A stretch of 47,018 nucleotides of DNA from a bacterium. Its GTDB lineage: Bacteria; JAHJDO01. The translations under genes and the position numbers were made by a program. The notes under the pieces were generated by a model. It saw only the letters and a list, made by a program, of their open reading frames with translations. It did no database searches and had not been told where the DNA came from. The stretch is from positions 1 to 47,018 of the forward strand of contig JAUWOV010000002.1 in NCBI GenBank assembly GCA_030611945.1, given 5' to 3'. Shown here one piece after another: positions 16,217 through 37,487 of the stretch. Positions within the stretch are counted from its first letter, which is position 1; each line of letters opens with the position of its first letter.

Positions 16217-16290
16217 TGGAGCGGGTGAAGGGAATCGAACCCTCGTATCAAGCTTGGGAAGCTTGTGTTCTACCACTGAACTACACCCGC
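16217..16290 (-). tRNA. tRNA-Gly (anticodon CCC), CCA encoded
   Basis: The cloverleaf is complete: acceptor GCGGGTG/CACCCGC, D-arm GTTC/GAAC, anticodon stem CAAGC/GCTTG with loop TTCCCAA, and T-arm with TTCGATT. The anticodon reads CCC (Gly, GGG). The discriminator T and CCA are encoded (TCCA). Third in the Thr-Tyr-Gly cluster transcribed leftward, the same order as E. coli thrU-tyrU-glyT. Confidence 0.95.
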
Positions 16291-16291
16291 A

Positions 16292-16376
16292 TGGTGGGGA
16301 GAGGAGGATTCGAACCTCCGAAGGCATCGCCGTCAGATTTACAGTCTGATCCCTTTGGCCGCTTGGGAATCTCCCC
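16292..16376 (-). tRNA. tRNA-Tyr (anticodon GTA), CCA encoded
   Basis: 85 nt with the long variable arm expected for bacterial tRNA-Tyr. Acceptor GGGGAGA, anticodon stem CAGAC... with loop around TGTAAAT giving GTA, T-loop GTTCGAATC, and an ACCA end. It lies 1 nt from tRNA-Gly and 8 nt from tRNA-Thr, so it is probably processed from one transcript. Confidence 0.96.
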
Positions 16377-16384
16377 ATTTTTAG

Positions 16385-16457
16385 AGCCGGCGAAGGGACT
16401 TGAACCCCCGACCCGCTGATTACAAATCAGCTGCTCTACCAACTGAGCTACACCGGC
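16385..16457 (-). tRNA. tRNA-Thr (anticodon TGT), CCA not encoded
   Basis: 73 nt: acceptor GCCGGTG/CGCCGGC (one wobble), D-arm GCTC/GAGC, anticodon stem GCTGA/TCAGC with loop TTTGTAA giving TGT, and T-loop GTTCAAGTC. After the discriminator T the sequence is CTAA, not CCA, unlike its two neighbours. Its 5' end lies 8 nt from the integrase stop, making it the first host feature at the prophage border. Confidence 0.95.
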
Positions 16458-16465: not shown

Positions 16466-17494
16466 TTACCTGCTTGCTGTTTTTGGCAATTTTAAGTTCA
16501 ATTTGCTTTTGTCATTTTGTCCACTTTTGTGACCATATTGTTTAGAAAGTATCTCAACAGCCTTAACTTTATGCTCTGGTAATGTATGAGTATATCGCAT
16601 GGTCATTTCTATCGTCTTGTGTCTCATAAGTTCTTTTACAGTCACAATGTCAACTCCGTTCTGGACTAATCTCGAACCAAATGTATGTCTTAGATCGTGG
16701 AATCTTATTTTAGGGATTCCCGATTTTTTCACGGCATTATACCAGCCCTTTTTTATATCTGCAATTTTATTATTTTTAAAAGTAAAAATATATTCACTAG
16801 CCTTTTTTAGAGACTTTAGGGCATTGTAAACATCTATGTTCATTGGTATTTTTGCTGATTCTCCAGATTTAGAATCTTGAAGATAGATTGTTTTATCTTT
16901 AAAATCTATATTATTCCATTTTAGATTAAGTAATTCTGACTTTCTCATGCCTGTATTAAGTGCAGTTATTATAATTGGCTCAAGATGTTCAGAAGTATTA
17001 TTAAGCAGCTTTATTTCTTCTTCAGGAGATAGAACCCTTACCTGATTAGCAATCTCTCTATATTGTTTAATTGATTTAGCTGGATTTGAATTGATATATC
17101 CCCATTGGATAGCAATTTGATACATGTGTTTAAGACAAGACATGTTTCTATTTACCGTTGATTTACTTACCCTTTCTAGTCTCTTCAATTTATATTGTTC
17201 AATTTCTCTTGTTGTGACCTGTGATAATTTATTGTGACCAAAAGCAGATAGAAGCCCATTAATACTGTATAATTCCTTTTCCCATGATTTTTTGTTAGCT
17301 TTTGAGTGTTCTGCATACTCTTTGGCAAAATCAGAGAACAGAATATCTTTGATAGGTTTTTTGTATCTGCTTACTTTGCGCTCAGCGAGAAGATCTACGG
17401 CCATGTATTTTTTGGGACCAGCAGGATCACGAATACGTCTACCATTCTGGTAATAATCTATATACCAGATTTGTCCTCTTTTGTAGATTGCCAT
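16466..17494 (-). CDS. int: Phage tyrosine recombinase (integrase)
   Basis: 342 residues. The N-terminal arm-binding region (MAIYKRGQIWYIDYYQNGRR) and a SAM-like core-binding domain precede the catalytic domain. The catalytic Arg lies in TALNTGMRKSELLNLKW, HxxR in RFHDLRHTFGSRLV, the second His in ELMRHKTIEMTM, and the nucleophile is the Tyr of RYTHTLPEHK. It catalyses site-specific integration and excision. It is the last gene of the leftward lysogeny block and reads straight into the tRNA cluster. No good Shine-Dalgarno precedes the ATG. Confidence 0.95.
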   Translation of the reverse strand: MAIYKRGQIWYIDYYQNGRRIRDPAGPKKYMAVDLLAERKVSRYKKPIKDILFSDFAKEYAEHSKANKKSWEKELYSINGLLSAFGHNKLSQVTTREIEQYKLKRLERVSKSTVNRNMSCLKHMYQIAIQWGYINSNPAKSIKQYREIANQVRVLSPEEEIKLLNNTSEHLEPIIITALNTGMRKSELLNLKWNNIDFKDKTIYLQDSKSGESAKIPMNIDVYNALKSLKKASEYIFTFKNNKIADIKKGWYNAVKKSGIPKIRFHDLRHTFGSRLVQNGVDIVTVKELMRHKTIEMTMRYTHTLPEHKVKAVEILSKQYGHKSGQNDKSKLNLKLPKTASR

Positions 17495-17522
17495 TAATTA
17501 TGTGAAATATAATTGGAAAATT

Positions 17523-17825
17523 TTAGGCACTTAAAGGCTGAAGATAACTGTCTATTGTTTTTCTTAGTGGAGCAGATAAGCTGTCTTCTGTATCTTGCAA
17601 TATTTTTTTAATAGTTGTGTTAACTTTTTGTATTCTAATTATTTCAATACCAACAAGCTGCCCACTTTTATCATAATCATAAGACAGAGAACTACCTTTA
17701 CGCAAGGTTTTTACGACTGGATCATTAGAAAACCCAATATATACAGCCTTTGCCAATGTATCCAAAGAGAATGAAACCGGCTTTCTTGTTTTAATGTGTA
17801 ATACCTCTTTTTTTATGCTATTCAT
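17523..17825 (-). CDS. DUF2283-like protein, possible antitoxin
   Basis: 100 residues. The core TLAKAVYIGFS followed by LSYDYDKSGQLVGIEIIRIQ matches the DUF2283 pattern (xxDVLYI... DYDxxGxLVGIEIL). About 35 residues form a charged C-terminal extension. It overlaps the upstream DUF4258-like gene by 8 nt, so the two are translationally coupled. DUF4258/DUF2283 pairs are known as putative type II toxin-antitoxin pairs, hence the antitoxin guess; there is no direct evidence of activity. Confidence 0.6.
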   Translation of the reverse strand: MNSIKKEVLHIKTRKPVSFSLDTLAKAVYIGFSNDPVVKTLRKGSSLSYDYDKSGQLVGIEIIRIQKVNTTIKKILQDTEDSLSAPLRKTIDSYLQPLSA

Positions 17826-18054
17826 CTGACCACCCCACTGTTATTATTATTATAAGATTATTTTTCTTACGTTCAACTACTATATAATTTTCTCTATTGT
17901 CAACTCTTCTTCTAAGTTCCTGAGTATTATCTTTTTTTATGGATGATGTATATGTCGGATGGTCAACGGTTTTTCTTATATCTTCCCGGCTCACATTTCT
18001 TTTAACCATCCTTTCTTGAGCGTGTCTAGTTAAAATTATTTTTTTCTTTGCCAC
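17818..18054 (-). CDS. DUF4258-like protein, possible RelE-like toxin
   Basis: 78 residues, GTG start with GAGGGG close upstream. LTRHAQERMVKRNVSREDI at the N-terminus is the DUF4258 hallmark (RHAxERMxxRxIxxxDI), and the C-terminus NYIVVERKKNNLIIIITVGW forms the final strands of a RelE-type fold. Its small size and basic charge suit an RNA-binding toxin. It is coupled to the DUF2283-like gene and lies among lysogeny genes, where stabilising modules are usual. Toxicity is inferred only. Confidence 0.6.
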   Translation of the reverse strand: MAKKKIILTRHAQERMVKRNVSREDIRKTVDHPTYTSSIKKDNTQELRRRVDNRENYIVVERKKNNLIIIITVGWSDE

Positions 18055-18104
18055 AGTCCCCTCTTATTCTCTCTCGCTTCTTTTTCGTATTTCCCGAACT
18101 GTTT

Positions 18105-18527
18105 TTACCATCTGTATGTAGGTTTAAAACCCATTGATTGGTGTCTACGCCCGATCAATTTTAACATTGGTCCAACTTTAGTCGCTCCGTATTCATTTTG
18201 AAGCGTAGCTCTAACTACAATAGCAGATATGTACCATCTTCGTTTACGTGTAGTCCGTTGCATATAATTAAATCCCGTTGTTTTAAATTCAGCATAAATG
18301 TTATTCCCGTGCTCATCCCATAAAGTTGCACAATAAATTCCCTTATCTACCTGAGATATATCTGTTGCATAATTGAATTCAATTCTTATTATTTCGTTTT
18401 CATAATCTGCCCAACTTAAATTAAGTTCTGAGATAGTCATTCTTATTTCTCTACTTCCCGCAGAGACATTTACTCCACAAAATAAAATTAAGAAGCATAT
18501 GAGTAATAATGTTTTAATTTTTACCAC
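18105..18527 (-). CDS. Small exported protein of unknown function in the lysogeny block
   Basis: 140 residues, not recognised. The N-terminus is a clear Sec signal peptide: a KIK start, the hydrophobic core TLLLICFLILFCGVNV, and a likely SAG/S cleavage near residue 23. The mature part is beta-rich with two cysteines (CATLWDEHGNN region has one). The GTG start overlaps the repressor stop by 7 nt with AAGGA upstream. Co-transcription with the repressor means it should be made in the lysogen, so a lysogenic-conversion or superinfection-exclusion role is possible. Confidence 0.65.
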   Translation of the reverse strand: MVKIKTLLLICFLILFCGVNVSAGSREIRMTISELNLSWADYENEIIRIEFNYATDISQVDKGIYCATLWDEHGNNIYAEFKTTGFNYMQRTTRKRRWYISAIVVRATLQNEYGATKVGPMLKLIGRRHQSMGFKPTYRW

Positions 18528-19222
18528 TTTGTCCTTTTCCCACTAATTCTGTAAACAGTGATATTATTTTTAACTATAATAGGCTCATATTTAGGATTTA
18601 GGGGATGTAAGATAATCTGACTATCGCTCTTGTAAAATTTTTTAACTGTAACTCCTTTGCTGTCATCTCTAGCAAGAACTATATCTCCGCTCTCAACATC
18701 CATAGAGGGTTCTACGAGTAGCAAATCTCCCGAATTTATACTCCTTTTGTCATCTATGCTTCCTGTCATGCTATCTCCATTTGCTTTAACAAAGAAGGCA
18801 TGAGGGTCTTTTGTGTCTGAATACTCATAAGAATCGGCATTACCAACAGGATAGTCCAAATCAGTAAGATCTTCCCATTTACCACAACTAGCATAATTTA
18901 TTACGGGGATTGCATGTTCTTTAAGATATATTTTATCTTTTTCGGGAACGATGTTCTCATTTAATTCAGAGGGAAGTTTATATAGATGTTTATCTTCCTC
19001 TGGAGCCCTGGCTCTATGTGCAAGAATTATTAACCTGCTTCTATCAATTCCTAATGTCTTAGATAATTTAGAAAGTGTATCTAACGACTTATTAGGGTCA
19101 GGAATAAAATCTGTAGACAATTGTCGCAAATATTCTGCCGAAATTCCAATTTTCTTAGAGGCAGCTTTTCTAGAAGGAAAAATTTCTATGGCTTGCTTAA
19201 TTTCATCGCCAAATTGGGACAT
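18521..19222 (-). CDS. CI/LexA-like phage repressor with S24 autoprotease domain
   Basis: About 233 residues. The N-terminal HTH spans AASKKIGISAEYLRQLS. The C-terminal half is an S24 peptidase: an ASCG site near residue 105 (probable Cys-Gly cleavage), the catalytic Ser in KANGDSMTG, the catalytic Lys in VTVKKFY, and GDIVLARDD. Such repressors hold the lytic promoter off and self-cleave when RecA is activated. ATG 19222 has AGGAG at 7 nt; GTG 19228 is too close to that site. The divergent promoter and palindrome at 19303-19331 are its probable target. Confidence 0.9.
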   Translation of the reverse strand: MSQFGDEIKQAIEIFPSRKAASKKIGISAEYLRQLSTDFIPDPNKSLDTLSKLSKTLGIDRSRLIILAHRARAPEEDKHLYKLPSELNENIVPEKDKIYLKEHAIPVINYASCGKWEDLTDLDYPVGNADSYEYSDTKDPHAFFVKANGDSMTGSIDDKRSINSGDLLLVEPSMDVESGDIVLARDDSKGVTVKKFYKSDSQIILHPLNPKYEPIIVKNNITVYRISGKRTKW

Positions 19223-19243
19223 ATTCACACTCCTTTATGTTTT

Positions 19244-19272
19244 ATTATATGCGTGTTTTATGTGAAATAAAA
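19244..19272 (-). promoter_or_regulatory. Probable repressor promoter (leftward)
   Basis: On the - strand the -10 is TATAAT (19244-19249). No good -35 lies 17 nt upstream (TTTTAT at 19267-19272), so the promoter may need activation, as lambda pRM does. Two partial direct copies of TGTTTTAT lie across it and could be operator half-sites. It is 22 nt upstream of the repressor ATG. Confidence 0.5.
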
Positions 19273-19302
19273 GGGAAAAATTAAAAAAAATTAAATATTT
19301 AC

Positions 19303-19331
19303 TTGACAAACAAATATCCTTTTGTCATAAT
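19303..19331 (+). promoter_or_regulatory. Early rightward promoter
   Basis: TTGACA (19303-19308), a 17-nt spacer, and CATAAT (19326-19331) make a near-consensus sigma70 promoter. Predicted transcription starts about 19338-19340, at the ATG at 19340, so the first message may be leaderless. The spacer is filled by the operator palindrome. Confidence 0.8.
19304..19327. promoter_or_regulatory. Probable repressor operator
   Basis: TGACAAA (19304-19310) and TTTGTCA (19321-19327) are a perfect 7-bp inverted repeat separated by 10 nt, occupying the -35 to -10 interval of the early promoter. This arrangement lets the S24 repressor block polymerase. Binding is inferred from position. Confidence 0.65.
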
Positions 19332-28060: not shown

Positions 28061-28097
28061 GCCTCATTTTGGCTTAGGTCAAAGTGGGGCTTTTTTT
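28061..28097 (+). terminator. Intrinsic terminator before terS
   Basis: GCCTCATTTTG (28061-28071) pairs with CAAAGTGGGGC (28080-28090) over 11 bp with two G-U pairs and an 8-nt loop, followed by seven T (28091-28097). It lies inside the 5' part of the longest terS frame, arguing that terS starts later. Confidence 0.75.
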
Positions 28098-28106
28098 AAT
28101 AAGAAT

Positions 28107-28514
28107 ATGAGAAAACAATCTAAAAAGCAAAAGAAAATAAAGAAAGAGATTTCCCCTCAGAGCCTAACTTTACAAATGGTAGAAGTCGCAAAAGTGCTAG
28201 GCGATGTTACTGATAAGCGTTATGATTATGAAATAGCACAGGAAATAGGAATTACTTCCAGAACAATAACAAATTGGAAAAGAATTCCTGCATTTCTGGC
28301 AATAGTCAATGGAACACTAGACGAAACAAAATCAAGTTTAAGGCTTAATGCATACAAATCACTTAATCGTCAAGCTATTGCGCAAAATATGGTAGCAGTT
28401 AAAGAGGCATTGGATAGGACTGAGGGACAAGTAAAGCAGACAGTTGAACACTCAGGGGATATAAAAGTAGTATTTAAAAACTCTGAGAAGATACTTGCTA
28501 AGGCGGATAAATGA
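28107..28514 (+). CDS. terS: Terminase small subunit
   Basis: 135 residues from ATG 28107. A basic N-terminus is followed by an HTH (YEIAQEIGITSRTITNWKR), a helical oligomerisation region and a charged tail, as in TerS proteins that recognise the packaging site. Starting at 28059 would place the terminator hairpin in the coding region, and the nearest AGAGG there is 16 nt away. The Shine-Dalgarno for 28107 is weak. It overlaps terL by 4 nt. Confidence 0.8.
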   Translation: MRKQSKKQKKIKKEISPQSLTLQMVEVAKVLGDVTDKRYDYEIAQEIGITSRTITNWKRIPAFLAIVNGTLDETKSSLRLNAYKSLNRQAIAQNMVAVKEALDRTEGQVKQTVEHSGDIKVVFKNSEKILAKADK

Positions 28515-30838
28515 AATTAGAGATAGAATACAATCCTAACCCAAAGCAAACAGAATTTCATTGTTCAAGCGCAAAATACCGCTTATTTCTTGGAGCATGG
28601 AGAAGTGGGAAATGTCTTTATGTCAAGCAAGGCGTAAGGATGGCTGATGGGAGTATAAAGCAAGCTCAAGATATACGGGCAGGGGATAAGATACTAGGAT
28701 ATAATAGGGAGACATGTAAAGCAGAGTCTTGTTCGGTTTTATCAACAGAGAAAACATTAAAGAAAACAGAAAGATACATATTATCTGATAATTCTGAAAT
28801 TATTTGTTCTCCTGACCATAGGTTTCCTTGTAGTTGGCAAGGATATGATAAAGAAAAGGAAATAGGAGAAATAGCGAGGAGAACAAAAGGGAATATATCC
28901 AAAGGATATTATTATTTACTTGGTGTTAAAAAGGTTAATTTTTTAGAAAGTAAAACCCCTTTTAAAATATCTCCATATATTCTCGGCTTATTATTAGGCG
29001 ACGGTTGTATGGTGCGGAACGAAATAAGTTTTTCTACCCCAGACAAGGAATTACTCACGGAACTAAGGACATTAGATAGTTTAGAGATTAAAAAACGCAG
29101 CGAATATGATTATGGCATAGTAAGCAAAGAAAAAGATGCTGGTGGTCGGAATTTCAATTGGCTTGTTACGGAATTGAGAGAATTAGGCTTATTAGGTAAA
29201 AATTCACATACTAAATTCATCCCAGAAAAGTATTTATATTCTACTGAGAAAGATAGGAAGGAAATATTATCGGGATTGGTAGATACTGATGGTTCGGTAA
29301 GAAAAGATAAAAAAGGCAGTATAGAATATAGCACCTGTTCTATTCAATTGGCAGAGGGTGTTCAATTTATTTTAAGAACGCTCGGGATAAGAGCAACTGT
29401 TAATAGAAGAACGACTAAAAGTCCCAATGGTAATCTTTGCCTTTCATATAGACTTACTTGGACTGATAAAAACTCCGTGAATTTAAGAATAAAACGGAAG
29501 AGAGATTTACTTGGAATAAGAAAACTGCATCGTTCTCACAGGGTATATATAAAAGAATATTATGATTTTGGAATACAGGAATGTGTAGACATAGCAATAG
29601 ACTATCCATCGCATTTGTTTCTTTTAGATAATTTTATAGCCACTCATAACACATGGGCAGGTTGCAAAGAGGCATTAAAACAAAGCATGTTATATCCTAA
29701 TAACAGAGGATTGATAGGCAGAAAGAACTATACTGATTTAAGAGATACAACGATGAGAACATTTTTTGAAGTATGCCTGCCAGAGTTGATAAAAAGCTAT
29801 AATAAAACAGAACATCATCTTTGTCTTATAAATGGTTCAGAGGTATTTTTCAGGGAATTAAAAGACAGGTCGGGACTTGGTTCTTTTGAGCTAGGCTGGT
29901 TTTATATTGATGAAGCAGAAGAGGTACAAGAAAGCATATTTACATATCTAAAAGGCAGGCTAAATGCTTCAGCAACGAAAAGACAATGCGGCTGGCTGAC
30001 AAGTAATCCACCAAACAAAGATCATTGGCTATTTAATGCTTTTGAAAGCGGGAATGCAAATCATTACTCCATACACGCCAATACATACCAAAACAAAAAA
30101 CATTTACCCGATAGTTATATTTCAGAGCTTGAGAGCCTGCCAGAATCTTGGCGTAAAAAGTATTTAATGGGCGAATATGGATTTACTCCTGACGGCAAGC
30201 CTTTTTACGATGGATTTAAAGATAGCCTACACAGGCGGTTATTAAATTATATCAAGGGCAAAACAATATACAGGGGAATAGACTTTGGATTTCATCATCC
30301 ATTTTGCGTTTGGGGGCAGGTTGACGCTAATGATAGATTTATGGTGCTAAAGGAGTTAATGGGGGCAGACATCACAATTGATAAGTTCGCAGATAGAATA
30401 ACATTGTTTGAGAATGAACATTTTCCTGATGTTGAATTTAAGACATTTTATGATCCTGCAGGAGAGCAAGTAAGTGATAAAAACGAACAGACATCAGTTG
30501 AGATACTAAAGGATAAGGGAATTACAGGAAGTTGTAAGCAATCTACTTATCGAGAAAGAAAGGAATTGATGGAGCAAAAGTTATCTACTCTTATTGCCGG
30601 TATTCCTGCGCTGATTGCAGATGAAAGTTGTCATGTGATAATTGATGGATTTTTAGGTGGTTATCATTATCCAGAGGCGAAAGATGGAAAACCTGTTGAG
30701 GAGACACCCTTTCGAGACGGATATTATGAACACGGATTAAATGCTTTGGAATATATTATAGTTAATCTGTTTAACGTGAGGAAGAAAAAACCGTCAAGAC
30801 CACAATTTACGGGAAGTTACAACCCCATGCAAGCTTAA
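28511..30838 (+). CDS. terL: Terminase large subunit precursor containing an intein
   Basis: 775 residues; after removing the 346-residue intein the extein is 429, the usual TerL size. The spliced Walker A is GAWRSGK-TWAG (residues 28-34 joined to 381 on). Walker B is WFYIDEAEE. The C-terminal RNase H-like nuclease shows GIDFGFHHPF, FYDPAGEQ and a late acidic/His stretch (FRDGYYEHGLNALEYI). TerL powers DNA packaging and cuts the concatemer. Without splicing the ATPase would be dead, since the P-loop is interrupted between its Lys and Thr. Confidence 0.93.
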   Translation: MKLEIEYNPNPKQTEFHCSSAKYRLFLGAWRSGKCLYVKQGVRMADGSIKQAQDIRAGDKILGYNRETCKAESCSVLSTEKTLKKTERYILSDNSEIICSPDHRFPCSWQGYDKEKEIGEIARRTKGNISKGYYYLLGVKKVNFLESKTPFKISPYILGLLLGDGCMVRNEISFSTPDKELLTELRTLDSLEIKKRSEYDYGIVSKEKDAGGRNFNWLVTELRELGLLGKNSHTKFIPEKYLYSTEKDRKEILSGLVDTDGSVRKDKKGSIEYSTCSIQLAEGVQFILRTLGIRATVNRRTTKSPNGNLCLSYRLTWTDKNSVNLRIKRKRDLLGIRKLHRSHRVYIKEYYDFGIQECVDIAIDYPSHLFLLDNFIATHNTWAGCKEALKQSMLYPNNRGLIGRKNYTDLRDTTMRTFFEVCLPELIKSYNKTEHHLCLINGSEVFFRELKDRSGLGSFELGWFYIDEAEEVQESIFTYLKGRLNASATKRQCGWLTSNPPNKDHWLFNAFESGNANHYSIHANTYQNKKHLPDSYISELESLPESWRKKYLMGEYGFTPDGKPFYDGFKDSLHRRLLNYIKGKTIYRGIDFGFHHPFCVWGQVDANDRFMVLKELMGADITIDKFADRITLFENEHFPDVEFKTFYDPAGEQVSDKNEQTSVEILKDKGITGSCKQSTYRERKELMEQKLSTLIAGIPALIADESCHVIIDGFLGGYHYPEAKDGKPVEETPFRDGYYEHGLNALEYIIVNLFNVRKKKPSRPQFTGSYNPMQA
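28613..29650 (+). other. LAGLIDADG-containing intein in the TerL P-loop
   Basis: 346 residues, beginning with Cys (CLYVKQGVRMADGSIKQAQ) and ending FIATHN before extein Thr. Block B is CSPDHRFP with its His. Two dodecapeptide homing-endonuclease motifs are visible: LGLLLGDGC and LSGLVDTDGS. The His-Asn end and Thr +1 fit standard splicing. All parts look intact, so both splicing and homing are plausible. Confidence 0.95.
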
Positions 30839-31790: not shown

Positions 31791-31988
31791 ATGCCTTATA
31801 CATTAAAAACACTACCACCACATATTAAAGAACTACCTCAATCTGCGCAAAAAACATTTATGGAAACGTTTAATTCTGCTTATGCGGATTGTAAGAAAAA
31901 CGGGTTATCACATGGAAATAAAAGTTGCGATGCTCAAGCGTTTAGAATAGCAAATAGTGCATTGAATAAATTAGCGGGGAAGAAATGA
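31791..31988 (+). CDS. ChaB-family protein
   Basis: 65 residues: LPPHIKELPQSAQKTFMETF followed by NSAYADC and DAQAFRIANSALNKL. This is the ChaB pattern (LPxxVxxLPxxAQxxFxxxxNxAY ... AxRxAW). ChaB-like proteins are frequent near phage head genes; the role is unsettled. It overlaps the portal start by 4 nt. Confidence 0.8.
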   Translation: MPYTLKTLPPHIKELPQSAQKTFMETFNSAYADCKKNGLSHGNKSCDAQAFRIANSALNKLAGKK

Positions 31989-33682
31989 GTGATATTGGAA
32001 CTTTAAGAAAGATTAAGGCGTGGAAAGAGGAAGCCACGAGTAAATGGTCGAAATGGGAAACGGGCGCAAAAGAAAATTTTGCTTTTGCACATGGAGAGCA
32101 ATGGAAGCCGGACATTAAGAGTAAAGTAGAAGAAGAAGGCAGGCCTGCATACACTTTTAACGAAATAAGAGGAGCTTTAAAGCTCGTTACAGGATTTCAA
32201 CGTCAAAACAGGCAGGATATTAAAATTGTTGGAGTAGAGGGCGGAGACGATAAAATAGCAGATATAATGACGTTATTGATTAAAAATGTTGTTACTAAGC
32301 AAAACGGAGAATATAAATTTAGTGATTGTTTTTCAGATGGAGTGAAATGTTCTCGTGGGTTTCTTGAGATAGAAATAAATTATGATCAAGATATTCTAAA
32401 TGGCGTTATAACTATTCATCATAGAAGTCCATTTGAAGTAAAGGTTGACCCATATTCTGTTGAATATGATTTAAGCGATGCTGGTTATCTAATTCGGGAA
32501 ATACCAAATCTCACAAAAGATATATTGCTTTCTCGGTTTCCTGAGCAGAAAGATAAGGTAATTGAGGCAACGGCAAAACAAGAACCTGATAGTGAGAAGA
32601 ATCGCTGGACTTTAGTAGAATGTTGGTATAAAGAATACACTATTGTAAAGTTTCTTGTTGATACTCAGCGTGGAGAAGTAACGGAGTTAGGCAAAGTAAC
32701 TAAGAAGCAGGAAGCGAAGCTATTAAAGGTTTCTAAGGATTTACAGATATATTCTCGCCGTGTTCCCTTAATTAAAGTAGCGTCAGTTGTTGGAGACGTT
32801 CTTTTGCAGGATGATGATTCTCCGTATTATCCACATTTAAAGATATTTCCTTTTATCCCTTATATATGTGATTGGACACCTTCTGCAAGTAAGCTGGAAC
32901 ATAGATGTCAGGGGATAGTGGATGCAATAAAAGACCCGCAGAGATTGGTAAATAAACAAACTTCTATGTCGTTACATATCATCAACACTTCGGCTAATGC
33001 TCCGTGGATTGGCGACGATGATGCTTTAGATGAGGAAGGAGAGACGAACCTTAAAAAGTTTGGGTCAAGACCTGGTATTTATATTAAAAAGAAAAAAGGT
33101 TCAGAATTAAGGAGAGAGCCTCCTGTTTCAGGCACTTTATCGCAGTTTGTTCTAACCGATAGAGGTTCAGACCAGATAAAGCGTATTAGTGGAATAGACA
33201 CTAATTTATTAGCACAAACAGAAATGAAATCAATGTCAGGTAAGGCTTTAGAGATAAGACAGCAACAAGGCAAAACAGCAATTCAGGAGATATTTGATAA
33301 TTTGCGATTAACAAGACATATTGAAGCTAGAGTGATAATAGGATTAATACTGCATTCTTATACACCTGAGAAAGTAGTCAGGATTTGCGGAGAAGAAAAA
33401 GTTACGCTAGAACAAGCATCTGCGATATTAAAAAATATAGATATGACGCAATATGATATTGCTATTGATGAGATTAGCTCCTCTGCTACTATGAGAGCAG
33501 CAACCTTTCTTACAATGCTTGAGATGAAGGAGAAAGGATTTCAGAGTATATCAGAGGCTGATTTAATAGAAAGTTCAGATCTGCCCAATAAAGAAAAGAT
33601 ATTAGCGAGAATTAAAAGTCAAGAAGAGGAAGGTCAAGGGGCTTTGCCTCTCGGACAAATAACACAAAAACAAAGGAGATAG
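31985..33682 (+). CDS. Portal protein (P22-type)
   Basis: 565 residues. N-terminal NFAFAHGEQW and RPAYTFNEIRGALKLVTGFQ followed by RQNRQDIKI are hallmarks of P22-like portals, with the FNEI and G-Q-RQNR elements. HHRSPFEVKVDPYS and a central GTLSQFVLTDRGSDQIKRIS follow; the C-terminus is helical. It forms the DNA gate at one capsid vertex and docks TerL. Absence of tape-measure genes fits a short-tailed phage. Confidence 0.88.
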   Translation: MSDIGTLRKIKAWKEEATSKWSKWETGAKENFAFAHGEQWKPDIKSKVEEEGRPAYTFNEIRGALKLVTGFQRQNRQDIKIVGVEGGDDKIADIMTLLIKNVVTKQNGEYKFSDCFSDGVKCSRGFLEIEINYDQDILNGVITIHHRSPFEVKVDPYSVEYDLSDAGYLIREIPNLTKDILLSRFPEQKDKVIEATAKQEPDSEKNRWTLVECWYKEYTIVKFLVDTQRGEVTELGKVTKKQEAKLLKVSKDLQIYSRRVPLIKVASVVGDVLLQDDDSPYYPHLKIFPFIPYICDWTPSASKLEHRCQGIVDAIKDPQRLVNKQTSMSLHIINTSANAPWIGDDDALDEEGETNLKKFGSRPGIYIKKKKGSELRREPPVSGTLSQFVLTDRGSDQIKRISGIDTNLLAQTEMKSMSGKALEIRQQQGKTAIQEIFDNLRLTRHIEARVIIGLILHSYTPEKVVRICGEEKVTLEQASAILKNIDMTQYDIAIDEISSSATMRAATFLTMLEMKEKGFQSISEADLIESSDLPNKEKILARIKSQEEEGQGALPLGQITQKQRR

Positions 33683-33685
33683 AAA

Positions 33686-34528
33686 ATGGGAGACATGCTT
33701 ATAGATGGAGAAGGATTTCAGCTAAATGACCAGAACGAACGTGCTTTAACCGACGAAGGGGATGAAATACTAATAAGTCATGATAAAGAGAACAATATTC
33801 TTGATGAAGAAGGCAACCCGAAGATGGATGAGGAAACAGGTGAGCCATTAAAAGTCGAAATTTTTACACCAGAGTCGCCAAAAGAGCCTAATGAGCTAGA
33901 TGGGCTTAAAACACAAGTAACTACATTGACAGAGCAGATTGAGGAGTTAAACAAAGCAAATACAGGTATTAAAAGTGATTTAGAGACAGAGAGAGGGAGA
34001 AGGCGAGATTTAGAAACAAACACAACTCCGCCAGCAATGACACCTGAGGAACAGGAAGAATATTTGAATGAGCCAATGACCCGTCAAGAAGCGCTTAATT
34101 TACAGGATACTCTTCGTCAGGATATTAAAAAGAGCACTCGTCCTTTAACTGAAAGCACATCATTAGCAAGCGCAAAAAAGAACCATGAGGATTTTGACGA
34201 AGTATCAAAGTTAGCAGATGAGGTTTTAAAAAACCAGCCATATCTAAGAGCGGCGCTTAATTTATCTAATGATCCTTCGGAAATGAAATATACTTTTGGA
34301 AAAACACATCCGAAATATATAGAAGGAATTAGGACAAAAGGAAAAGCTGATACTATAAACACAATAACTAATCCAAAAATTAAGACATCGGCAAATGTTA
34401 GCGGTGTAAGTAAGACAGATTTAAGCGGGCTTGACTTGGCAGCGGCTGAGAAGCTCCAAAGAGAAGACCCAGAAGCCTTTGCAAAGTTACCTGAAGCAAC
34501 AAAACAAAGGTTAATGGGCGCAATTTGA
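33686..34528 (+). CDS. Capsid scaffolding protein
   Basis: 280 residues, acidic N-terminal half, coiled-coil centre (LKTQVTTLTEQIEELNKANT) and a Lys-containing C-terminal part. Length, charge and place between portal and capsid are typical of internal scaffolds that leave or are cut after assembly. No protease was seen. The last codons overlap the capsid promoter -35 box. Confidence 0.7.
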   Translation: MGDMLIDGEGFQLNDQNERALTDEGDEILISHDKENNILDEEGNPKMDEETGEPLKVEIFTPESPKEPNELDGLKTQVTTLTEQIEELNKANTGIKSDLETERGRRRDLETNTTPPAMTPEEQEEYLNEPMTRQEALNLQDTLRQDIKKSTRPLTESTSLASAKKNHEDFDEVSKLADEVLKNQPYLRAALNLSNDPSEMKYTFGKTHPKYIEGIRTKGKADTINTITNPKIKTSANVSGVSKTDLSGLDLAAAEKLQREDPEAFAKLPEATKQRLMGAI

Positions 34529-34553
34529 CATCTATATAATTATAGTATATACT
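34525..34553 (+). promoter_or_regulatory. Strong promoter dedicated to the capsid gene
   Basis: TTGACA (34525-34530), a 17-nt spacer, and TATACT (34548-34553): near-consensus sigma70. The -35 overlaps the scaffold stop codon. The transcript should start about 34560, giving a leader of about 209 nt before the capsid ATG. Confidence 0.8.
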
Positions 34554-34559
34554 GATTTT

Positions 34560-34768
34560 TGAGGCTGGAAAGCAAGGGTTTCCATGTTTACCTGATGAAT
34601 TCGCCTCACATCAAACAAGCATGCGGTCAAAATGGGCTGTAAAGCAGAGAAGTCAGGCACTTCTTGTGGAATTCGCCCACCGCAGTAAAAAGTCTCGATT
34701 CGCCTAAAAGCGAGGAGGGCTGTAATAAATCCTCAAAATTGTAAAAAGTTAATAAAGGAGGATTTATT
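34560..34768 (+). ncRNA. Structured 5' leader of the capsid mRNA
   Basis: Paired segments: TGAGGC 34560-34565 with GCCTCA 34603-34608; TGGAAA 34566-34571 with TTTCCA 34579-34584; TGCGGT 34622-34627 with ACCGCA 34679-34684; GGGC 34634-34637 with GCCC 34675-34678; AGAAGT 34648-34653 with ACTTCT 34659-34664; TCGC 34700-34703 with GCGA 34710-34713. GAATTCGCC recurs at 34597 and 34669, and GATTCGCC at 34697. GGGCTGTAA occurs at 34634 and 34717. No open frame is convincing. Confidence 0.7.
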
Positions 34769-34771
34769 ATG
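34721..34771 (+). promoter_or_regulatory. Start-sequestering hairpin of the capsid gene
   Basis: AATAAATCCTC (34724-34734) is the perfect inverse of GAGGATTTATT (34758-34768), with a 23-nt loop. U34723-A34769 and two wobble pairs extend the stem across the AUG to 14 bp, so the GGAGG Shine-Dalgarno and start codon are both paired. A competing GAGGA at 34712-34716 can take the same TCCTC (34730-34734). Confidence 0.8.
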
Positions 34772-35782
34772 TTAACAACCGTAAATTCAAGTCTAGTTCC
34801 TATTCTATGGGCCCGAGAACTCATCACAGAGATCCTAAGAGATTTATGGATGAGAAAGTTTATCAGCAGCGGGAAAGATAATGTTGTTCAAATTTCCAGC
34901 GAGCTTGGTAAAAAGGCAGGGGACCGCATAAGGTTCGGTTTAAGAATGAAACTTAGCGGCGATGGAATAGACGGAGATGGCGAGAGAGCCGGGCATGAAG
35001 AGGCTCTGGATGTCAAGAACGACGCGTGTGTCATTAATCAAAAATGGCATGGAGTTACGCTAAAAGGCAGAATGGAAGAGCAGAAAGCTGCTTACAATCT
35101 GCGCTCAGAAGCAAAAGCAGGGTTAAAGGACTGGTGGCAGGAACTGATTGATGAGTATATCATTCGGTTCTTGAGCGGTGATACCACTTTGACTTTTGCT
35201 AATGCTGGAACAGCTCCTGATGCGGGGCATCAGGTTTTTGCTGGCGGATTGGCAAAGGCAACTATCACAGCATCAGACAAGTTTGATGTTGGCTGTATCA
35301 AGAGAGCAAAGCAGAAGGCAAAAGTCCCTGCTTCTGGAACTCCAAAAGTTCCGCCTCTCATGATCAATGGAAAACCTCACTGGATAATGATTTTACATCC
35401 TTTTCAGTCAGATGACCTCAAGAGTGATAGTGAATGGTTGCAAAGTCAGCGAACTGCCAATATCAGAGGCGAGAAAAATCCTGTTTTTAGTGGCGCATTA
35501 GGTATCTATGATGGGGTAATCCTGCATGAGCATGAAAAATGCTTGACCTTCTCTGATTATGGTGATGGTGGAAACTTGCCTGCTGCAAGGGCAATTCTGT
35601 GCGGACGACAGGCAGCTCTTTTTGGTAAACAAAAAGAAGTTCCTCGTTGGCATGAAGAGACCATTGACAGAGGGAATAAGTATCATGTCGGCGCTGACAT
35701 GATTTTTGGAATTAAGAAAGCTGTATTTAATTCCAAAGATTTCTCAGTAGTTGCTTGCGATACTTATGCGACAACCATCTAG
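34769..35782 (+). CDS. Major capsid protein (N4-gp56 family)
   Basis: 337 residues. The start (MLTTVNSSLVPILWARELIT) and the segment KKAGDRIRFGLRMKLSGDGI, with a later RSEAKAGLKDWWQELIDEYI, match the N4-gp56/DUF4043 capsid family. Near the C-terminus RAILCGRQAALFG and the ADMIFGIKKAVF strand are typical. Strong GGAGG upstream but buried in a hairpin. It builds the icosahedral shell around the scaffold. Confidence 0.9.
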   Translation: MLTTVNSSLVPILWARELITEILRDLWMRKFISSGKDNVVQISSELGKKAGDRIRFGLRMKLSGDGIDGDGERAGHEEALDVKNDACVINQKWHGVTLKGRMEEQKAAYNLRSEAKAGLKDWWQELIDEYIIRFLSGDTTLTFANAGTAPDAGHQVFAGGLAKATITASDKFDVGCIKRAKQKAKVPASGTPKVPPLMINGKPHWIMILHPFQSDDLKSDSEWLQSQRTANIRGEKNPVFSGALGIYDGVILHEHEKCLTFSDYGDGGNLPAARAILCGRQAALFGKQKEVPRWHEETIDRGNKYHVGADMIFGIKKAVFNSKDFSVVACDTYATTI

Positions 35783-37466: not shown

Positions 37467-37487
37467 GTGCGAAATGGAGATAAAAAA

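Follow-up and report, generated by a model that had tools for sequence, protein, structure and literature searches.

A predicted hairpin over the ribosome-binding site of a prophage major capsid gene, a probable translational lock

The major capsid gene of a temperate prophage was found to follow a strong σ70-type promoter and a predicted leader of about 209 nt, and the leader ends in a hairpin that would pair most of the Shine-Dalgarno (SD) sequence together with part of the start codon. We consider it moderately probable that leader and hairpin act together in cis as a translational lock on the capsid mRNA. The stretch of DNA analysed, referred to here as the window, comprises 47,018 bases of a 1.66-Mb assembly of 91% completeness, from a phylum with only five genomes in the set searched. 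It contains a temperate prophage with an N4-gp56-like capsid (PF13252), whose genes bearing on the argument are as follows.

16466 to 17494, minus strand: integrase gene (protein scan)
18521 to 19228, minus strand: gene for a CI-like S24 repressor (protein scan)
28511 to 30838: large terminase gene (identity by position)
31985 to 33682: portal gene (profile match)
33686 to 34528, plus strand: putative scaffold gene, 280 amino acids (position between portal and capsid genes)
34769 to 35782, plus strand: major capsid gene, 337 amino acids (PF13252 and phrog_334)

Host genes, valyl-tRNA synthetase among them, reach as far as about 16 kb. A prophage end lies beside the three tRNA genes that come next (16220 to 16457), and the integrase and S24 repressor region occupies 16466 to 19331, including at 19303 to 19331 an early promoter, TTGACA-N17-CATAAT, that is extended by TG. 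Past the repressor come replication genes and then the small terminase gene, as assigned by protein scan. The strongest terminator-like site in the right half of the window, a 13-bp stem with a T7 tail at 28061 to 28090, overlaps the listed start of the small terminase reading frame (28059), and for this reason the true start is probably downstream. The large terminase frame (775 amino acids) looks interrupted by an intein-like insert, stopping after ...GAWRSGK at a Cys and picking up after ...HN with TWAG. Assignment of the capsid gene rested on profile matches to phrog_334 (E 7e-77) and PF13252 (E 1.4e-49). The putative scaffold frame matched no PHROG and had no significant Pfam match, so that the name "scaffold" is positional only.

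The elements at the 5' end of the capsid gene are listed below, all on the plus strand.

34525 to 34553, plus strand: σ70-type promoter TTGACA-N17-TATACT, 11 of 12 consensus bases (sequence and promoter scan)
34560 to 34768, plus strand: predicted untranslated leader (start inferred from the −10 box)
34712 to 34716, plus strand: GAGGA, possible competitor for TCCTC at 34730 to 34734 (folding)
34722 to 34734, plus strand: 5' arm, GTAATAAATCCTC, of the hairpin sequestering the ribosome-binding site (folding)
34750 to 34756, plus strand: TAATAAA, second copy of an arm sequence and alternative partner of 34763 to 34769
34758 to 34770, plus strand: 3' arm of the same hairpin, which contains the A and U of the start codon and the greater part of the SD (folding)

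The preliminary description of this DNA had placed TTGACA-N17-TATACT at the scaffold stop codon, and our analysis bore this out: the −35 box TTGACA (34525 to 34530) and the −10 box TATACT (34548 to 34553) are separated by 17 nt, and the scaffold stop codon TGA (34526 to 34528) lies inside the −35 box. With its 11 of 12 matches this promoter ranked first among 48 promoter-like sites between 27.5 and 47 kb, a total equal to the shuffle expectation, so that only rank and position distinguish it. The position of the −10 box predicts a transcription start near 34560 within the 240-nt gap between the scaffold and capsid genes, and hence a leader of the length, about 209 nt, that had been claimed. 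The lysogeny region and the capsid promoter had no word of 9 nt or more in common, and on this ground we rejected an operator shared by the two.

The central feature of the leader is a perfect inverted repeat in which TAATAAATCCTC at 34723 to 34734 can form 12 Watson-Crick pairs with GAGGATTTATTA at 34758 to 34769. Minimum free energy (MFE) folding added a G34722-U34770 pair, giving 13 bp at −15.3 kcal/mol (z −4.87; matched by none of 200 shuffles). Four of the five bases of the SD GGAGG (34757 to 34761) are paired, together with the A and U of the AUG, so that the SD and AUG are predicted to lie in an intramolecular helix of the sort found over one or both of them in T4-type inhibitory hairpins. 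The 14-bp stem reported earlier was correct in that the stem encloses the SD and AUG; it consists of 12 Watson-Crick pairs and one or two wobble pairs, the fourteenth being U-G (34721-34771). The host 16S rRNA ends in CACCTCCTTT, and therefore the capsid SD should be functional in principle. The repeat is the only perfect one of at least 12 bp (loop up to 40 nt) in the 47-kb window, and five shuffled windows contained 0, 3, 0, 0, and 0 such repeats. Freeing positions −15 to +5 at the capsid start was calculated to cost 14.6 kcal/mol, against a median of about 5 for genes in the window; this is the maximum among genes with a credible start, the sole costlier start being a GTG at 37467 that has no SD. 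When the SD and start were held fixed in the shuffles, SD sequestration at the capsid gene had a z of 4.1, and none of 60 shuffles was as high.

Two alternative folds were compared with this hairpin. The GAGGA at 34712 to 34716, which had been said to compete for the same TCCTC, is indeed complementary to it and was the predicted MFE partner while the transcript ends at 34739 to 34749; however, once the 3' arm has been transcribed the hairpin is favoured by about 10.5 kcal/mol, so that GAGGA would be a transient partner too weak to switch the leader unaided. Pairing of TAATAAA (34750 to 34756) with TTTATTA (34763 to 34769) would place GGAGGA in a 6-nt loop; this fold is 11 kcal/mol less stable than the hairpin, and about 10% of shuffled loops would contain, by chance, the repeat that it needs.

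Several nested hairpins had also been described in the leader. Hairpins were predicted in its 5' part, but the segment from 34560 to 34683 folded alone was no more stable than its shuffles (z −0.42). Three elements of this upstream part, again on the plus strand, are of interest.

34561 to 34607, plus strand: module A, a 37-nt interior, TGGAAAGCA...GAATTC, closed by GAGGC/GCCTC
34633 to 34679, plus strand: module B, a 37-nt interior, TGTAAAGCA...GAATTC, closed by TGGGC/GCCCA
34691 to 34721, plus strand: small hairpin between module B and the ribosome-binding-site hairpin (−10.3 kcal/mol, z −1.5)

Both interiors start with TGnAAAGCA and end with GAATTC, and each is shut by a stem of 5 bp; between the two stems, two pairs are changed on both sides. 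Plain similarity of the modules is modest, being equalled in 39 of 500 shuffles; similarity and stem closure combined were reached in none of 1000 shuffles, by a statistic devised after the pattern had been seen. The modules may be tandem binding sites. Pattern and covariance-model searches found them nowhere outside the window: seven pattern matches in IMG/VR all lay inside long open frames and were set aside as chance, weak covariance-model matches at three loci (L213 to L215) were rejected because they sit in long coding frames, and there was no match of the module model in 35 relatives. An open frame at 34543 to 34707 spans both modules, which are 72 nt apart and in the same frame, and would encode a repeated peptide, KQ...EFA. 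A leader peptide starting at ATG 34622 (28 codons) is unlikely, as this ATG has no SD and the protein-level matches look like chance.

No capsid relative above 46% identity was present in IMG/VR, phage records, or genome contigs. Single-sequence searches of IMG/VR and the genome contigs with capsid and portal gave no close relative, and the relatives at or below 46% identity came from alignment-based searches. The leader DNA found only itself in the host genome, its best matches in congeners being of 15 to 28 nt (best E 0.02), at chance level, and the exact hairpin pattern was absent from IMG/VR. With no close homologue to supply covariation for the window leader, we turned to a family-wide test of whether the ribosome-binding site is hidden. 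The SD and start were fixed, the 114 nt upstream were dinucleotide-shuffled, and MFE energies were compared; relatives were counted as leader-bearing if the leader was at least 50 nt, and control genes were those of the same contigs whose upstream non-coding sequence was 80 nt or longer. The SD was sequestered beyond shuffles in 26 of 52 leader-bearing capsid relatives (mean z 1.8), whereas this was so for only 2 of 42 leaderless capsid relatives and for 8 of 110 other leader-bearing genes (mean z 0.01). Fisher tests gave p values of 2e-9 and 8e-7 for the two control contrasts, which are overstated as related sequences were counted separately. We propose a grouping of leader-bearing PF13252 capsid genes with a sequestered ribosome-binding site, in which the window capsid belongs by its PF13252 match, its 240-nt gap, its SD sequestration beyond shuffles, and its place in the capsid tree. 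Among the relatives the pairing arms varied in sequence and kept their complementarity; in the cluster of Pavtok, Itty13, and Parlo two outer pairs were changed on both sides, evidence that from six sequences is weak alone. Promoters matching 11 of 12 σ70 consensus bases occurred in the leader region of 3 of the 52 relatives (L091, L059, and L013; 0.04 expected), and that of L091, where the SD is strongly sequestered, lies just past the upstream gene, as in the window. In a quick tree of the capsid proteins the window was sister, with 98% SH-aLRT support, to a clade in which 46 of 55 other sequences have leaders. Recurrence of ribosome-binding-site sequestration in the relatives, far above controls, supports a selected function, and in these folding models it suggests that such phages widely control capsid production at translation. 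Counting against a lock, the relatives closest by identity have no leader, and in half of those with a leader the SD is not significantly sequestered. Searches with the module model in 35 relatives and with the exact hairpin pattern in IMG/VR found no homology of the window leader to the other capsid leaders in sequence or in structure, and no Rfam family matched at the leader in any of the 20 capsid loci tested.

Of 55 leader-bearing relatives, 12 have a csrA-like gene immediately 5' of the capsid leader; the same gene order occurs in the named phages BcepMigl, LASTA, Parlo, and Skulduggery, among others. At the csrA-bearing loci (among them L014, L017, L200, L202, and L204 to L207) it sits between the scaffold-side gene and a structured leader of about 100 nt, in which GCGCAnGACGTGC is often shared and the SD and AUG are drawn into a hairpin. 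The leader in csrA-bearing relatives is a candidate csrA-controlled element that has no Rfam family. A paper on the related phage JC1 regarded csrA as a moron gene (PMC9144972), and a survey of CsrA catalogued such phage genes with capsids unmentioned (PMC7366521); the csrA-capsid link is absent from both, although earlier notice in the Bcep22 literature is possible. The Bcep22-like and related podophages (BcepMigl, LASTA, Parlo, Pavtok, and Itty13) have in common with the window the capsid family, a non-coding leader directly 5' of the capsid gene and, in many of their leaders, a ribosome-binding site drawn into a hairpin; in contrast, the csrA-like gene that adjoins the leader there was not found in the window, and the leader sequences are unrelated. 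The phage csrA-like profile had no match in the window, nor was there a PF02599 match to CsrA in the 91%-complete host assembly, and CsrA control of the window leader is disfavoured. Very long hairpins at the ribosome-binding site precede the capsid gene in several relatives lacking csrA (L060, about 1180 to 1303; L150, about 2390 to 2492; L027, about 2850 to 2968; L013, about 1415 to 1482); in L060 the SD is wholly paired (z 9.4) and the outer stem is RCGTTAA...TTAACGT.

We propose that host σ70 RNA polymerase would initiate near 34560, past the scaffold gene, and produce a capsid mRNA with the 209-nt leader; on emerging, the SD and AUG would pair with the upstream arm, blocking the 30S subunit and keeping basal capsid synthesis low. 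Some opening step must then exist, because the phage would gain nothing from a capsid gene that is always closed. Our best guess is that the opener would come from the phage or be a factor induced in the host; an RNA-binding protein is the likeliest kind, and its target would be either the pair of modules or the GAGGA/TCCTC competitor. Such an arrangement would silence the locally transcribed capsid gene during lysogeny or in the early part of infection, or would set the capsid dose. The promoter sequence, the hairpin with its predicted strength, and the repeated sequestration in relatives are what the analysis shows; we infer the transcription start, repression in cells, on/off switching by the leader, and the opening step with its trigger.

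The best-supported reading, by analogy, is that the lock would work like the hairpins of T4 e, soc, and I-TevI. In T4 such a hairpin cuts translation of gene e about 100-fold (PMC3014915). The T4 e, soc, 49, and I-TevI hairpins and that of Aeh1 mobE resemble the one described here in that the SD, the AUG, or both pair with sequence lying farther 5' in their own mRNA, in that the phage gene is costly or harmful if mistimed, and in that the mRNA is also begun far upstream (PMC3014915). The present case differs in concerning a temperate phage and its major capsid gene. Transcripts from the strong promoter found here would keep the 5' arm, their 209-nt leader carries a repeated pair of modules, and a late promoter is not evident inside the hairpin. 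The translational operators of T4 gp32 and gp43 likewise lie in leader RNA upstream of and overlapping the ribosome-binding site (PMC3014915), but there a protein represses an open site, whereas here the RNA itself would close the site, and any binding protein is conjecture.

The T4 comparison also raises two-transcript timing, in which the long mRNA is silent and a later promoter within the hairpin region yields a short, translated mRNA lacking the 5' arm. The 5' arm contains TAATAAAT, which resembles a weak −10 element, in the leader of T4 gene e the late-promoter box TATAAATA lies across the 5' arm in like manner (PMC3014915), and the ribosome-binding site would be free in transcripts begun near 34736. 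We nevertheless consider this unlikely: the strong promoter that was found is upstream of the entire leader, a scan confined to σ70 consensus sites gave no match of 9 of 12 or better on the plus strand in the hairpin region, and the proteins scanned showed neither a sigma factor nor an RNA polymerase of phage origin.

Nor do we favour, as a somewhat improbable reading, a leader without a switch, one that stabilises the mRNA or attenuates it constitutively, with ribosomes loading via a standby site or during transcription. Stabilised leaders start with a stem, and the predicted transcript does open with one of 6 bp (34560 to 34565 with 34603 to 34608). However, a 15 kcal/mol hairpin at the ribosome-binding site would suit the most abundant virion protein badly unless it could be opened, and the site is hidden in the relatives far above controls. 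That an A+U-rich inverted repeat merely happens to fall at the capsid start is improbable: repeats of 12 bp do turn up occasionally in shuffled windows, and unsequestered leaders make up half of those in the relatives, but the repeat must also coincide with the ribosome-binding site, which none of the 200 and none of the 60 shuffles matched, and the trend repeats in the relatives.

A ligand-binding riboswitch, with modules A and B as tandem aptamers and the hairpin as the expression platform, is very doubtful. Two similar, stem-closed modules stand 5' of the hairpin with a competing helix, an occluding arrangement like that of platforms such as SAM-III (SMK box), and the combined shuffle result above fits such a reading. 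Against it, aptamers are normally widespread, whereas these modules were found nowhere else and their plain similarity is weak. The preliminary description recognised no riboswitch class in the leader, and we agree: no Rfam family matched at gathering score, the best sub-threshold matches were at chance level, and that to SAM-III was rejected at 16.7 bits against a cut-off of 45. The window leader also differs from SAM-III in having no known aptamer and a competitor about 10 kcal/mol weaker than the sequestor. Finally, an RNA thermometer opened by warming is highly improbable, and temperature, earlier offered as a possible trigger, is disfavoured: as in thermometers, the hairpin is rich in A+U and masks the SD and the start codon, but the SD was predicted to remain closed from 4 to 70°C, and the host is very likely a mesophile because its 16S rRNA has a GC content of 49%.

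Beyond the translational lock proposed for this one gene, it is possible, though we hold it doubtful, that translation of PF13252/N4-gp56-like capsids is generally gated by leaders hiding the ribosome-binding site, with different leaders and openers in each lineage (csrA-like in the Bcep22-like phages), and that the window holds a separate type, with a promoter of its own, a tandem pair of binding modules, and a bistable hairpin. The capsid protein is the virion protein made in greatest amount, and its control in DNA phages is usually ascribed to late transcription and gene order. If true, a recurrent lock on the ribosome-binding site of capsid mRNA would be an added, post-transcriptional checkpoint; it could explain the presence of csrA-like genes directly 5' of capsid genes in many podophages, and it would explain how the capsid gene stays silent in the lysogen despite an apparently unrepressed σ70 promoter.
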